Shown one piece after another: positions 13,819 to 19,024 of a stretch of 45,466 bases of DNA; position 1 is the stretch's first letter, and every line of letters starts with the position of its first letter. Both the position numbers and the translations under genes were made by a program. Origin of the DNA: Candidatus Calditenuaceae archaeon (GTDB lineage Archaea; Thermoproteota; Nitrososphaeria_A; Caldarchaeales; Calditenuaceae); contig JANXEU010000005.1 in assembly GCA_025058055.1 (NCBI GenBank), positions 1-45,466 of the forward strand, read 5' to 3'. Below the pieces are notes generated by a model. The model saw only the letters and a program-made list of their open reading frames with translations. It ran no database searches and was not told the DNA's origin.

Positions 13819-14295
13819 TCACATGGGCTTCTGCGAGGTCAGGGCCGCAACCCTCTCAGTCCCGAAGCGGCTTAACCTATAAGTCCCTTCAGGATCCCGA
13901 ACCAGAAGACCGTCCTTGGCAAGCTCGGCGAGTCTGGCGACGACGCTCCCGTAGTTCACTGGAAATCCGTCGTTCCTGAGGAACTCGTAAACCTCGATAG
14001 GCTTCATCGCTCGCCTTCCCTTCAGCTCCCACGCGTAGTACGCGAGCAATATCTGATCCTTGAGTGGAAGGTCTCGCGCCAACCTGCTCACGTGAGGCAC
14101 CTCGCCGGTCAGGTCCAGCCAGCCCTCGAGGTCCGCAACCGTCACCGCAGCGGCCCTCTTTCTGATGCCCTCAAGCGCTTCGAGAACCGCTTTGTGCACA
14201 TCCCCGAGCCTCTCGGCGGTCAGCTCGGCCACGTCCTCGACCTCTACCTCATACGAGATCTCCCTCTGTACGGGTATCCTAACCCTAACTTTCAT
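13819..14295 (-). CDS. Winged-helix protein, probable transcriptional regulator
   Basis: I do not recognise the family of this 158-residue protein. Residues 1-75 begin with an acidic beta-like stretch (KVRVRIPVQREISYEVEVEDV) and a helix. Residues about 78-150 look like a winged helix: PLKDQILLAYYAWEL, then MKPIEVYEFLRND, NYGSVVARLAELAKDGLL as recognition helix, and a DPEGTYRLSRFG wing. No membrane segment or cysteine is present. The ATG at 14295 lies about 30 bases from a TATA-like element (14322-14331). A palindrome (14336-14351) sits just upstream of that element, where a regulator could act. The DUF1648 gene follows within 8 bases of its stop, so the two are probably one transcript. Confidence 0.6.
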   Translation of the reverse strand: MKVRVRIPVQREISYEVEVEDVAELTAERLGDVHKAVLEALEGIRKRAAAVTVADLEGWLDLTGEVPHVSRLARDLPLKDQILLAYYAWELKGRRAMKPIEVYEFLRNDGFPVNYGSVVARLAELAKDGLLVRDPEGTYRLSRFGTERVAALTSQKPM

Positions 14296-14450: not shown

Positions 14451-14588
14451 ATGAGCGTGGCGGCCGAGTCTGAGCTGAGAAGGGAGGTCGAAAGGTTGAT
14501 GGCTGAGACTAAGAAGTCGATCGAGGAGTTCAAGGCCAAGCTCCGGGAGGAGGCTAGGTCCATCGGCAAAAAGGCCCTCGGGCGCTAA
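14451..14588 (+). CDS. Small helical charged protein (45 residues)
   Basis: I do not recognise this protein. It has 45 residues, nearly all Glu, Lys, Arg, Ala and Leu/Ile, with no Pro and only two Gly near the C-terminus. Leucine and isoleucine spacing (RREVERLMAETKKSIEEFKA) suggests one amphipathic or coiled-coil helix. The codons look like those of its neighbours. A TATA box stands at leaderless distance and the ORF ends just before the convergent hydrolase gene, overlapping its stop by 4 bases. It could be a subunit of a larger complex or a nucleoid-associated peptide; nothing in the sequence decides this. Confidence 0.5.
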   Translation: MSVAAESELRREVERLMAETKKSIEEFKAKLREEARSIGKKALGR

Positions 14589-15475
14589 GTCGAGAGATAC
14601 GCACCTAAGGTGAAGACTAGAACTGCATCTCGAACATAGGGGTTGACGTCTTTTCGGCCTCCGAGATCTTCATCTATTATTCTCCAAGCAATAGAGACAG
14701 GGTCACGCAGCTCCCGTTTCAACGTCATCACCCTCTCCATCCACCAGCTGACGAGTGAGGTCTCTTCGTTGAGAGCGTTCTCCGAAGGTAAGCTGGGGCC
14801 GTAGTGAGGCCTTAGCAACAACACCGGTTCGTGGTCGAAAATCTTCTTGAGGCTCCTCACGTACTCGTCTCGATCGAAGCGCGGAGGGACAGTCGCAGGT
14901 ATTGATCTTTGGAAGAGGGGCGACTTGTGAGCAACGGCGTCACCGGTGACCGCGTATCGCAGTGGATCTATCAAGACAGAGAGGTGATGAGGTGCGTGTC
15001 CTGGAGTGTAGATTATCAATAAGTTTTTGTCACCGATGACTAGTTGATCCCCGTCATCAGCAACGTCTATCCTCTGCTCTGGGACTGGTCTCATGCCCCC
15101 CATTTTCGCGAAGTTGACATCGCCGAAAAGGGAGCGCGTCGACTCAACCAGCCGACTTGGATCGAGCATGTACTTGTAGGCCTTCTGGTGGACGAGGGCC
15201 CTCGCATTCGGGTGATGCTCGAGGACTTCAAAGAGGGCGCCGCAGTGGTCCAAGTGAGCGTGAGTGACCACGATCAGTTCCAAATCGTTCGGTCCAACGC
15301 CGATCTCTCGGAGAGACCCGATGACGAGGGGTGCTGAGCTTGAGTAGCCGGTGTCGAACAGCACCCATCCCTTCTCAGTCCTCAGCAGATAGACGGCTAT
15401 TGTTCTAGGGTAGAAGGGGCCCTTAGTGTCGATCAGGTAGAGGCCCTTTCCTATGTGAGTCCAGCTACTCCTCAA
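14585..15475 (-). CDS. Metallo-beta-lactamase-fold hydrolase
   Basis: The 296-residue protein has the full binuclear metal site of the fold: His72-x-His74-x-Asp76-His77 in THAHLDHCG, a His in TPGHAPHHLS, an Asp in VTGDAV and a late His in LRPHYGP. This fits a glyoxalase II or related thioester/phosphodiester hydrolase; the substrate is not determinable. Its start overlaps the panB stop by 4 bases, making it the last gene of the pantothenate/CoA operon. A role in thioester hydrolysis or in protecting CoA intermediates is conceivable from that position but is only inferred. Confidence 0.85.
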   Translation of the reverse strand: MRSSWTHIGKGLYLIDTKGPFYPRTIAVYLLRTEKGWVLFDTGYSSSAPLVIGSLREIGVGPNDLELIVVTHAHLDHCGALFEVLEHHPNARALVHQKAYKYMLDPSRLVESTRSLFGDVNFAKMGGMRPVPEQRIDVADDGDQLVIGDKNLLIIYTPGHAPHHLSVLIDPLRYAVTGDAVAHKSPLFQRSIPATVPPRFDRDEYVRSLKKIFDHEPVLLLRPHYGPSLPSENALNEETSLVSWWMERVMTLKRELRDPVSIAWRIIDEDLGGRKDVNPYVRDAVLVFTLGAYLST

Positions 15476-16332
15476 CGACCAACCCTTTTGCGCAGCTCTT
15501 CCCTCTCTGCGGAGTCCATAAACTGCGTGTGCTCAGGTCCTGGGAACGAATCGGCTTTAACGTCCTCGACGTAACTCTTGATAGCGTTCAGTATGGCCGT
15601 GCCTACGTCGGCGTATCGCTTGGCGAACGGCGGCGATTTCTCGTAGAGTCCAACGACGTCGTGAAGGACGAGGACCTGACCGTCGCACTTCGGCCCGGCT
15701 CCTATTCCGATTACAGGGATCTCTAGAGTTGACGAGAGGTACTCGGCGACTTCAGAGACTGCGAACTCCAACACGATGCTGAAAGCTCCAGCCCTCGCGA
15801 TCTCCTCGGCGTCCTTGATGACCTCCTCCGCGTCCTCTACCTTCTTTCCCCTCAAACGGTATCCGACGCTAGTGACGAAGAACTGTGGCGTCATGCCGAC
15901 GTGCCCCATGACTGGTATGCCGGCCCTCACGATGCTCCGAACGACATCGGCGTAGTGCCTACCTCCCTCGACCTTCACAGCGTCCACCCCACCTTCCTTA
16001 ACGAACCTGCCAGCGTTCCTCACAGCATCCTCATGGGAAACGTGATAGCTCATGAAGGGCATGTCACCTATCACCAACGCTCTCCTAACCGCCCTCGTAA
16101 CGGCCCTGCAGAAAGTGATCATCTCATCGATCCCGACGAATCGCGTATCCGGATACCCCAGAACGACCATCGCCGCCGAGTCTCCGACCAGTATCGAATC
16201 GACACCCGCATCGTCTGCTAGCCTTGCCGTCGGGAAGTCATAGGCTGTGATCATGGCGATTTTCTGCCCCTTGGACTTCATCCTGATCAGGCTGCGAGCC
16301 GTCAGCTTCTCGTGTCGCTCGGTCAATCTCAA
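15472..16332 (-). CDS. panB: 3-methyl-2-oxobutanoate hydroxymethyltransferase (ketopantoate synthesis)
   Basis: PanB adds a one-carbon unit from a methylene-pterin to 2-oxoisovalerate, giving ketopantoate. The 286-residue barrel shows MITAYDFPTARLAD, metal ligands Asp51 (LVGDSAAM), Asp90 (IGDMPFMSYH) and Glu122 (VKVEGG), HVGMTPQ, and the catalytic Glu189 in SIVLEFAV. These match the E. coli residues D45, D84, E114 and E181. The gene overlaps phosphopantothenate synthetase by 4 bases upstream and the hydrolase by 4 downstream. The ketopantoate reductase that would follow it is not in the window. Confidence 0.96.
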   Translation of the reverse strand: MRLTERHEKLTARSLIRMKSKGQKIAMITAYDFPTARLADDAGVDSILVGDSAAMVVLGYPDTRFVGIDEMITFCRAVTRAVRRALVIGDMPFMSYHVSHEDAVRNAGRFVKEGGVDAVKVEGGRHYADVVRSIVRAGIPVMGHVGMTPQFFVTSVGYRLRGKKVEDAEEVIKDAEEIARAGAFSIVLEFAVSEVAEYLSSTLEIPVIGIGAGPKCDGQVLVLHDVVGLYEKSPPFAKRYADVGTAILNAIKSYVEDVKADSFPGPEHTQFMDSAEREELRKRVGR

Positions 16333-17105
16333 TCACTCAGCGGTTCCCCGTACGACGCAAGCCGATCGAGCCTCTGCGTGATCGTCGCAATGAACTCCTT
16401 GAGGTTCCTCTCGTTGTCGAAGCTCTCAAAGACCTCCCTTATCTTCTCCCGACCCGCAGACCTCATCTCCCTTACTGCACCTGTCAGCTCCGGGAGGGCC
16501 CTCACTACGTTGTCGACGATGGTCACGGTAGCTGCTCTTGCGGTCCTCGAGAATGGGTTCAAGTCGACCGCGACTACGTGCTTGCCCAGTCGCCTCAGCT
16601 TCTCAGTTCTGTCACCGTCCTCCATCGCCACGAAGACGGTGTCGGCCCTGTAGATCCCTCTTCTGTTGACGAGTCTCCTGCTGCTCTCGAGACCTGGGAC
16701 CTCCTCTGCGTCATCTATGGGAAGTAGGACCTCGTTGGCTCCGTAGGACTTCAACAACTCACCGATCTTCTCGACTCGCGACCTGCTCCAGTAGAACAGG
16801 TTCACCTCGAGCGGCGCTTTCACCTCCCTGGCCAGCTCAACCAGCTCTCTCCCCACCAAAGCTGCGGAGTTACCGTTCACCGATATGACGGGCTTCTCAG
16901 AGATGAGCAGTAGAGCTGCGGCGGCCCTCACGGCCTTCCTTGCCATCTCGTGGGTCACCTCACCCAAGATGTAGTCGAACGCCTCCCCTCGGCCGTGGGC
17001 CATTAGACCCTCCGGTACGACGATTCCCTCTTTGAAGGCCTCGACAAGCCTCTCGCGGATCATCAGCGAGACGTAACGCGGATGGCTTCTAGGTACGTTA
17101 ACCAC
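16329..17105 (-). CDS. 4-phosphopantoate--beta-alanine ligase (archaeal phosphopantothenate synthetase)
   Basis: This archaeal enzyme joins 4-phosphopantoate to beta-alanine using ATP, replacing bacterial pantothenate synthetase and kinase. The 258-residue protein shows the opening HPRYVSLMIRERLVEAFKEGIV, then HGRGEAFDY, SVNGNSAAL, LEVNLFYWS, and the conserved VAVDLNPFSRTARAA near residue 200. These features are specific to the family (formerly DUF137). It overlaps pantoate kinase by 43 bases and panB by 4, as expected for consecutive steps. Start is taken as 17105; a later Met at residue 15 would remove part of the conserved N-terminal helix. Confidence 0.93.
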   Translation of the reverse strand: MVNVPRSHPRYVSLMIRERLVEAFKEGIVVPEGLMAHGRGEAFDYILGEVTHEMARKAVRAAAALLLISEKPVISVNGNSAALVGRELVELAREVKAPLEVNLFYWSRSRVEKIGELLKSYGANEVLLPIDDAEEVPGLESSRRLVNRRGIYRADTVFVAMEDGDRTEKLRRLGKHVVAVDLNPFSRTARAATVTIVDNVVRALPELTGAVREMRSAGREKIREVFESFDNERNLKEFIATITQRLDRLASYGEPLSD

Positions 17106-17932
17106 TTTCCGTCACCTAAAGCGAGAGGTTCACAGTTCCCAAAGGTCCTCTGGACGTGCGACCTCACCTCCTCCGCGTGGCGAAGCTCCGTGACCGCAAA
17201 GAGGACCATCTTCTTCACGGAGTATCCCAACAAGACGTCTTCCACCGGCTTCATCGCAGCCTCAACTCGATCGGTTAGGAACCCAACTCCCTTGCCGAAG
17301 TCGCGTGAGCACTCGAGAAACCTCTCAAGAGAAGGGTTCGCAAGGAACTTCCTGTAAGCCACTGAGCCGTACTCCCTAATCCTGTCAGCGAACTTGAGTA
17401 GCATCTCCTTGGTTGACATCCCTCCCAACACAGACGTCAGGACCGCCACGTCCACTCGCCTCTCAACCACCTCAGACTCGCCGATGCCTGGTGCTCCCGG
17501 GCTAGTCCTCAACACCAAGCCGGCTCCCGCGTGAAGTGCTAACACGTCGCCGAGACCCGTGACGCTCCGCACTTCGGCAACGTGGGCGCGCCTGAAGGCC
17601 TCCATCGTTTCGGTATTTGGGCTGAGGAGCGAGCATGCCAGCGCTATCGATGCGCTCAGTCCGTAGCCGGCACCAAGCTTCAGGCGAGTCTCGATTCGGT
17701 AGTCAAGCCCTCCGTTCAGTACATCGCTAAACGGCGAACCGCGAACCGGTGCCCCATTCACGAGCAACCTGCCACTCCCCCTCTCCGCTTGAGATACGAT
17801 CCCCGGCTCCAGAACGATTCCTGCACCTATCGAGCCCGCTTCTAGGGGGTTCTGACTCCACATGGGCACGAAAAACCCGGTCACGTGGGCGGGGACCTCA
17901 ACGCTCCCAGCTAATGTTCGCACAATAGTCAT
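17063..17932 (-). CDS. Pantoate kinase (GHMP family)
   Basis: Pantoate kinase phosphorylates pantoate to 4-phosphopantoate, the archaeal branch of CoA synthesis. The 289-residue protein has the GHMP phosphate-binding loop LGAGYGLSAS (residues 86-95) and the family opening VPAHVTGFFVP and SIGAGIVLEPG. This pattern distinguishes it from mevalonate and homoserine kinases, and its partner ligase follows directly. ATG at 17932 is the first codon of the operon, about 22-26 bases from an AAATTTAAA core promoter that lies inside a perfect inverted repeat (17941-17968). Confidence 0.93.
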   Translation of the reverse strand: MTIVRTLAGSVEVPAHVTGFFVPMWSQNPLEAGSIGAGIVLEPGIVSQAERGSGRLLVNGAPVRGSPFSDVLNGGLDYRIETRLKLGAGYGLSASIALACSLLSPNTETMEAFRRAHVAEVRSVTGLGDVLALHAGAGLVLRTSPGAPGIGESEVVERRVDVAVLTSVLGGMSTKEMLLKFADRIREYGSVAYRKFLANPSLERFLECSRDFGKGVGFLTDRVEAAMKPVEDVLLGYSVKKMVLFAVTELRHAEEVRSHVQRTFGNCEPLALGDGKWLTYLEAIRVTSR

Positions 17933-17940
17933 AATAGTTG

Positions 17941-17968
17941 TTACGTTATTAAATTTAAACTAACGTAA
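17941..17968. promoter_or_regulatory. Perfect inverted repeat straddling the CoA operon TATA element: candidate operator
   Basis: TTACGTTA (17941-17948) and TAACGTAA (17961-17968) are exact reverse complements. They flank the 12-base spacer TTAAATTTAAAC, which holds the TATA-like element for pantoate kinase. A further half-site, TACGTAA, lies at 17971-17977. A dimer bound here would cover the TBP site and repress. The promoter drives three successive CoA-pathway genes and a hydrolase. The whole gap 17933-18052 is AT-rich and also contains the upstream region of thiL. Confidence 0.55.
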
Positions 17969-18052
17969 AATACGTAATCTATTTATCAACTTCACTATTC
18001 AGGCGAGGCGAACCGAGAACAGTATTAGTGGATCGTTCTTAAACGGCCGGCG

Positions 18053-19024
18053 ATGCGGCTCGGCGATGTGGGCGAGAAGGGCCTCCTGAAATATGTGATA
18101 CCGAGGCTTAAGAGGGTCGGGGAGCAACTTTGGGGCGGGGACGACGGGGTCGACTTCCTCGGCAAGGAGAGGCTGGTCTTGACTGGCGACATGTTGGTGG
18201 AGTGTACGGACGTGCCACGCGGAATGGGTTTCAGGGACGTGGGTTGGAAGGCTGTTACCTCCTCGATCAGCGACCTAGCCGCAAAAGGAGCGACGCCTCT
18301 TCTCTGCTTCGTTGAGCTGGGACTAAGACCCGATATGGAATTCGATGAGTTCGTCGAGCTTTGGTCCGGTCTGGAGGAAGCTTGTGATGCCTATTCCGTC
18401 GCGCTCGTGGGCGGCGATACCAACGAATCCCGGGAGCTGGTGGTGGGAGTGTTCGCGGTCGGGTCAGCTGCTCGCCCAGTTCCAAGAAGGGGTGCGAGGG
18501 AGGGGCAACTGGTCGGTGTTACGGGGACGTTCGGCCGTGCTGCAGCGGGACTTCACGCGGTAGTGCACGGCGTAGCTGATCAGCGCTGGAGGCCGCTCGT
18601 CGATTCGTTCTTCAGGCCTGCGGCTAGGGTCAAGGAGGGCATTGCACTTTCGAGGTACGTGAAGTGCATGATCGACTCCAGCGACGGATTGGCCGCGACC
18701 TTGGGGGATCTGATGGATCTCAACGGTGTCGGTTTTCTCATCGACTCTCCACCAGCCGACCAGTTGGCGCTTGAGTACGCTTCAAAGTTCGGGCTGAACC
18801 CTTTCAGCGTCGTCTTCGAGGGCGGTGAGGAGTACGAGCTCGTGTTCACGTTCGAAGCCGCAGACGAGGAACTCGTTAGGGCGGCGCTCTCAGAAGTCGG
18901 CTGCGAGCTGAGAGTGATCGGCCGAGTCACCTCTGACGTTAGGCTTAGGACGATCTGGGAAGGCAAGGAGGTCGATGTGAGGGTCAAGGGCTGGGAACAC
19001 TTCGTGAGGCACGGCGAACTCTAA
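18053..19024 (+). CDS. thiL: Thiamine-monophosphate kinase
   Basis: ThiL phosphorylates thiamine monophosphate to the active pyrophosphate using ATP. The 323-residue AIRS-like protein has the N-terminal GDDGVDF acidic metal site, LTGDMLVECTDVP, WKAVTSSISDLAAKGATP, GGDTNES, the GVTGTFGRAAAGLH linker, MIDSSDGLA, and EGGEEYELVFTF near the C-terminus, in the order of the family. The start codon is ATG at 18053. It is divergent from the CoA operon and only weak TATA-like sequence (AGTATTAGT, near 18024-18032) precedes it. leuS follows after about 97 bases with its own TATA box. Confidence 0.93.
   Translation: MRLGDVGEKGLLKYVIPRLKRVGEQLWGGDDGVDFLGKERLVLTGDMLVECTDVPRGMGFRDVGWKAVTSSISDLAAKGATPLLCFVELGLRPDMEFDEFVELWSGLEEACDAYSVALVGGDTNESRELVVGVFAVGSAARPVPRRGAREGQLVGVTGTFGRAAAGLHAVVHGVADQRWRPLVDSFFRPAARVKEGIALSRYVKCMIDSSDGLAATLGDLMDLNGVGFLIDSPPADQLALEYASKFGLNPFSVVFEGGEEYELVFTFEAADEELVRAALSEVGCELRVIGRVTSDVRLRTIWEGKEVDVRVKGWEHFVRHGEL

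Follow-up and report, generated by a model that had tools for sequence, protein, structure and literature searches.

Operators of the MetJ type, at which ribbon-helix-helix (RHH) repressors bind, are composed of tandem 8-bp palindromic boxes. Archaeal activators usually sit close upstream of a non-consensus BRE/TATA and help to recruit TFB or TBP (PMC5512572, PMC6737238). The EarA sites in the archaellum (fla/arl) promoters of Methanococcus and Thermococcales are short repeated units (TACATA), up to three or four of which lie side by side (PMC5512572, PMC10665913), and up to three repeats adjoin one another upstream of BRE (PMC10665913). Tar (TK0271) of Thermococcus kodakarensis, which acts on aromatic amino acid operons, is likewise bound upstream of BRE/TATA (PMC6737238). 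At the enzyme level, archaeal CoA synthesis is known to be under feedback control, CoA inhibiting ketopantoate reductase (PMC6650551). A preliminary description of the locus studied here knew of no transcriptional regulator of this pathway; our literature searches for such a regulator and for the motif described below returned nothing relevant, and PMC6650551 names feedback inhibition only, which agrees with that statement and does not prove absence.

We analyzed a window of 45,466 nucleotides (the whole contig stretch under study) from a Candidatus Calditenuaceae archaeon of the Caldarchaeales (former Aigarchaeota), whose 1.17-Mb draft genome is congeneric with three further genomes (G001, G002, and G003; genus Calditenuis). 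The comparison set consisted of 44 genomes of the order, 12 of them in the family. We propose, with a probability of about 0.7, that a dedicated regulator of PoK-PPS-panB, a sequence-specific DNA-binding protein, has its operator in the 120-bp intergenic region at 17933-18052. As judged from sequence comparison, this proposal is supported by the conservation of the site, its uniqueness in the genome, its tie to PoK and not to thiL, and its place beside a putative BRE/TATA.

The region separates two divergent genes. On the minus strand, the pantoate kinase gene (PoK, 17063-17932) scores 97.6 and 88.8 bits with the NCBIfam pantoate kinase models, which is below their cut-offs, and its homologues in relatives are clustered with PPS and panB; the ORF list places its start at ATG 17932, and a conserved GTG at 17923 is an alternative. 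PoK is overlapped by the gene of 4-phosphopantoate--beta-alanine ligase (PPS, 16329-17105, minus strand; Pfam PF02006, E 5e-69), which shares 4 bp with panB, encoding ketopantoate hydroxymethyltransferase (15472-16332, minus strand; Pfam PF02548, TIGR00222), and panB in turn shares 4 bp with the gene of an MBL-fold hydrolase (14585-15475, minus strand; Pfam PF00753). Since each gene overlaps the next, the four genes probably form one operon. BlastP analysis of the neighbourhoods showed that the MBL-fold hydrolase gene closes the CoA operon in each of the four Calditenuis genomes. What this enzyme would do near CoA synthesis is not evident, and ketopantoate reductase (KPR) stands in its place in G004, a genome of another genus of the family. 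On the plus strand, thiL (thiamine-phosphate kinase, 18053-19024; TIGR01379 above cut-off) starts from the other side of the intergenic region.

Six PoK promoters from the closest genomes that were informative, i.e., those of the window genome (G000) and of G001 to G005, were aligned and read in gene orientation. Their common feature is a tandem of TACGTAA units (TACGTAAnn) with a 9-bp period, located upstream of BRE/TATA and usually made up of two good units and a weaker third. In the window the three minus-strand units read TAAATAGAT TACGTATTT TACGTTAGT. Unit 1 (17977-17985) is degenerate here and is TACGTAAnn in G001, G004, and G005, unit 2 (17968-17976) has a TACGTA core kept in five of the six genomes, and unit 3 occupies 17959-17967. 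The corresponding units are TAAGTAAGT TACGTAATT TATGTTAAT in G003, TAGGTATGC TACGTAACT TACGTAAAC in G002, TACGTAACA TACGTAAGA TATTTAAGC in G001, TACGTAAGT TACGTAAAT in G004, where the third unit is lost, and TACGTAATC TATATACTC TATTTATAG in G005. Because TTACGTAA is itself palindromic, single units have no decidable orientation.

The element is present at PoK in four Calditenuis species and one other genus (G004), and a third genus (G005) has it in degraded form. It is absent from the PoK promoters of genus g4 of the same family and of the other families of the order, and the best match among more than 50 other archaeal PoK upstream regions has 4 mismatches. The genus g4 promoters (L010, L011, L014) share a stretch of their own, AAACGTGAATAT, located about 60-85 bp before the PoK match, which may be their core promoter or the site of another regulator.

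In genome-wide matching, TACGTAANNTACGTAA was found exactly at the PoK promoter of G001, G002, and G004, as the single exact match of each genome and with no other match in the 12 genomes of the family; elsewhere among the 44 genomes of the order it occurs only in G024 and G025, one copy each, at other genes. The degenerate three-unit pattern TANNTANNNTACGTANNNTANNTW, which fits the window site, has a single location, PoK, in all four Calditenuis genomes and a single location in each of 3 of the 40 other genomes of the order. We examined 18 weaker or stray matches: 17 of them are within ORFs, and the remaining match, in G012, is outside any ORF. The tandem element is therefore not frequent at unrelated places; frequent occurrence there would, in the terms of the preliminary description, have counted against its site. 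Further targets of the array could be missed, since G004 and all but one of the four Calditenuis genomes are incomplete. A copy of the pair with one mismatch lies upstream of a carbamoyltransferase-like gene in G004 (L044:1501-1516; G004:C4:44326-44341), possibly a second target in genus g2 or a chance match. In the Caldarchaeum-like G025 (L062:1501-1516; G025:C76:8185-8200), an exact TACGTAAATTACGTAA with a weaker third unit is found about 60-75 bp upstream of the pyruvate phosphate dikinase gene; a wider regulon on this basis was rejected, as the orthologous gene in 13 other genomes is without the site.

The preliminary description had drawn attention to a different feature of the same DNA, an inverted repeat with exact 8-base arms, TTACGTTA (17941-17948) and TAACGTAA (17961-17968), 12 bp apart on either side of the AT-rich PoK promoter core, and to a third TACGTAA half-site beside them (17971-17977). 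These letters and positions are correct, and TTACGTTA-N8-16-TAACGTAA has a single match in the whole draft genome. The low chance claimed for such a repeat was overstated for DNA this rich in AT: dinucleotide shuffling of the 120-bp intergenic stretch produced a perfect 8+8 inverted repeat (spacer 3-30 bp) 8.7% of the time, and shuffling of its AT-rich 60 bp did so 13% of the time (p about 0.09-0.13), and the window has 14 seed positions for repeats of this kind. The claim had also been staked on conservation of the arms in relatives with the same operon, and there the strict TTACGTTA-N12-TAACGTAA repeat is not conserved; one arm has one mismatch in G003, several mismatches are found in G002, and the spacing is altered in G001. 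As read in the alignment, the arm at 17961-17968, which unit 3 overlaps, is the third tandem unit, and the supposed third half-site is the second unit.

The ease with which such repeats arise, and the exact matches in G024 and G025, which show that chance copies do occur, are the points in favour of chance or plain AT-rich promoter DNA, with the likeness among relatives due to common descent alone. We consider this improbable, since exact copies persist in two genera whose PoK proteins are only about 38% identical, the element is unique per genome, and its conservation clearly exceeds that of the adjacent sequence: in the four Calditenuis species the columns of the element are 70% identical vs 38% for the adjacent upstream 45 columns. 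Shuffled PoK promoters equalled the observed match in none of 5000 cases in each of G001, G002, and G004, in 1 of 5000 in G003, and in 11 of 5000 in the window; the G005 copy is weak, with 3 mismatches that were equalled in 138 of 2000 shuffles. Control of the divergent thiL (thiamine, e.g., by a ThiR-type regulator), the adjacency of PoK being incidental, is less probable still. It would fit the four Calditenuis genomes, in which thiL diverges from this same intergenic region, and also the G004 cluster PoK-PPS-panB-KPR-thiL, in which thiL is the last gene downstream, but the gene upstream of the element in G004 and G005 is an unrelated co-directional membrane protein gene, the element still lies before PoK, and thiL of G005 is convergent with the operon. 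Moreover, some 70 bp separate the element, which is located at the PoK TATA box, from the start of thiL, and the other Calditenuis matches examined are inside ORFs, none at the promoter of a thiamine gene or of any other. As the element stays in place when the gene upstream changes from thiL to an unrelated one, it belongs to the CoA operon. Some partition sites are built from tandem short palindromic units, and one site per genome with such units would also suit a chromosomal structural element, i.e., the site of a partition or architectural protein that came to lie at this locus fortuitously; we give this the lowest probability of all, because the element remains tied to the PoK start through the changes of neighbouring genes and keeps an equal distance to BRE/TATA in three species. 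A regulatory site at the CoA promoter, as the preliminary description had it, is retained in so far as the site is specific and conserved with the operon and the other promoters are without copies among the matches inspected, but not as an 8+8 repeat centred on TATA. In this corrected form, the finding is very probably that of a conserved, operon-specific operator.

The sign of regulation can be approached from the promoter geometry. The putative BRE/TATA of the window, TTTAAA-TTTAATAA (17946-17959, minus strand), was recognized from the sequence and the alignment; the putative BRE is TTGAAA in G003 and CTGAAA in G002, and the putative TATA box is TTTAATAA in G003 and CTTAATTA in G002. The spacing from the element to BRE/TATA is identical in these three genomes, and in all of them a conserved GTG follows about 30 bp after the TATA box begins, a distance that points to a leaderless transcript from near GTG 17923. 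In G001 the units lie further upstream, or another TATA box is used. An RNA element was rejected, as an Rfam search of the window gave zero matches and transcription would start downstream of the units. An extra half-site, TAACGTAAC (17940-17948, minus strand), immediately follows the TATA box; it corresponds to the arm at 17941-17948 and is partly kept in Calditenuis species only: it reads TAACGTAAC in G003, TTACGAAAC in G002, and ATACGTACC in G001, and is missing in G004 and G005. Such TACGTAA-like sites on both sides of the core promoter, in the window and G003 and roughly in G002 and G001, agree with the repressor of the preliminary description, i.e., a protein on units flanking BRE/TATA that blocks TBP/TFB, perhaps with CoA as co-repressor. 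We regard this form of the operator model as doubtful, because the half-site is missing in G004 and G005 and changed in G001 and G002, the arm spacing is altered in G001, and the best conserved units are those upstream of BRE, a position more typical of archaeal activators. If the site is an operator, this position would modestly favour activation, in which TFB/TBP are aided onto a weak promoter, over repression, which nevertheless would retain a sizeable share of the likelihood through the half-site behind TATA.

We return to the proposed operator of the CoA operon, which would be the TACGTAA tandem array of 9-bp period directly upstream of BRE/TATA. The protein would bind side by side on adjacent units, and transcription of the operon might be set by the need for CoA or its precursors, with the status of CoA, pantoate, or beta-alanine as the signal; the additional half-site past TATA could make room for repression or dual control in Calditenuis. 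No regulator gene is found in the operon, and two candidates do not fit the distribution of the element. The ORF at 13819-14295 encodes a 158-aa winged-helix-like protein with no Pfam or NCBIfam match, which is present in all four Calditenuis genomes and weakly in genus g4; it was rejected as the regulator, being not detected in G004 or G005 and, in G001, not located beside the operon. Several RHH protein groups exist, and in G003 the one that was followed is encoded on the PoK contig, some 63 kb away from PoK; as a MetJ-like regulator it was also rejected, since it is family-wide, including genus g4, where the element is lacking.

The kind of site is ordinary; what makes it interesting is the pathway. 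We found no account of transcriptional control in archaeal CoA synthesis, and to our knowledge such control would be without precedent. It is conceivable, although we hold this only tentatively, that the array marks a transcriptional regulator dedicated to archaeal CoA synthesis, the first of its kind and one that serves a single operon through a cooperative 9-bp array, acts as an activator or with dual sign, senses a CoA precursor, and possibly belongs to an undescribed DNA-binding family. As a single-target candidate operator with a clear 9-bp repeat, the site could serve as bait DNA in isolating the regulator, and the array is a marker for tracing the gain or loss of control within one archaeal family.

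Among the described systems, feedback inhibition by CoA concerns the same pathway and acts on an enzyme, ketopantoate reductase, not on transcription (PMC6650551). The MetJ operators resemble the array in that TTACGTAA, too, is a tandemly repeated 8-bp palindrome, but the period here is 9 instead of 8, and the distribution of the RHH group that was followed differs from that of the element. Tar offers a likeness in that it governs biosynthetic operons and is bound upstream of BRE/TATA (PMC6737238), where binding is predicted here, with the difference that Tar has three operons and one target is seen in our case. The nearest architecture is that of the EarA sites, in which the promoter of one operon likewise carries short units near BRE on its upstream side; in the window, G002, and G003, the putative BRE is immediately preceded by two to three 9-bp units. 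The aligned TACGTA(A) units do not match the EarA consensus, TACATA or A(C/G)(C/G)TACA(T/C), and the array differs from EarA sites in its TACGTAA unit and 9-bp period, in its target, CoA synthesis, and in its lineage, the Caldarchaeales.
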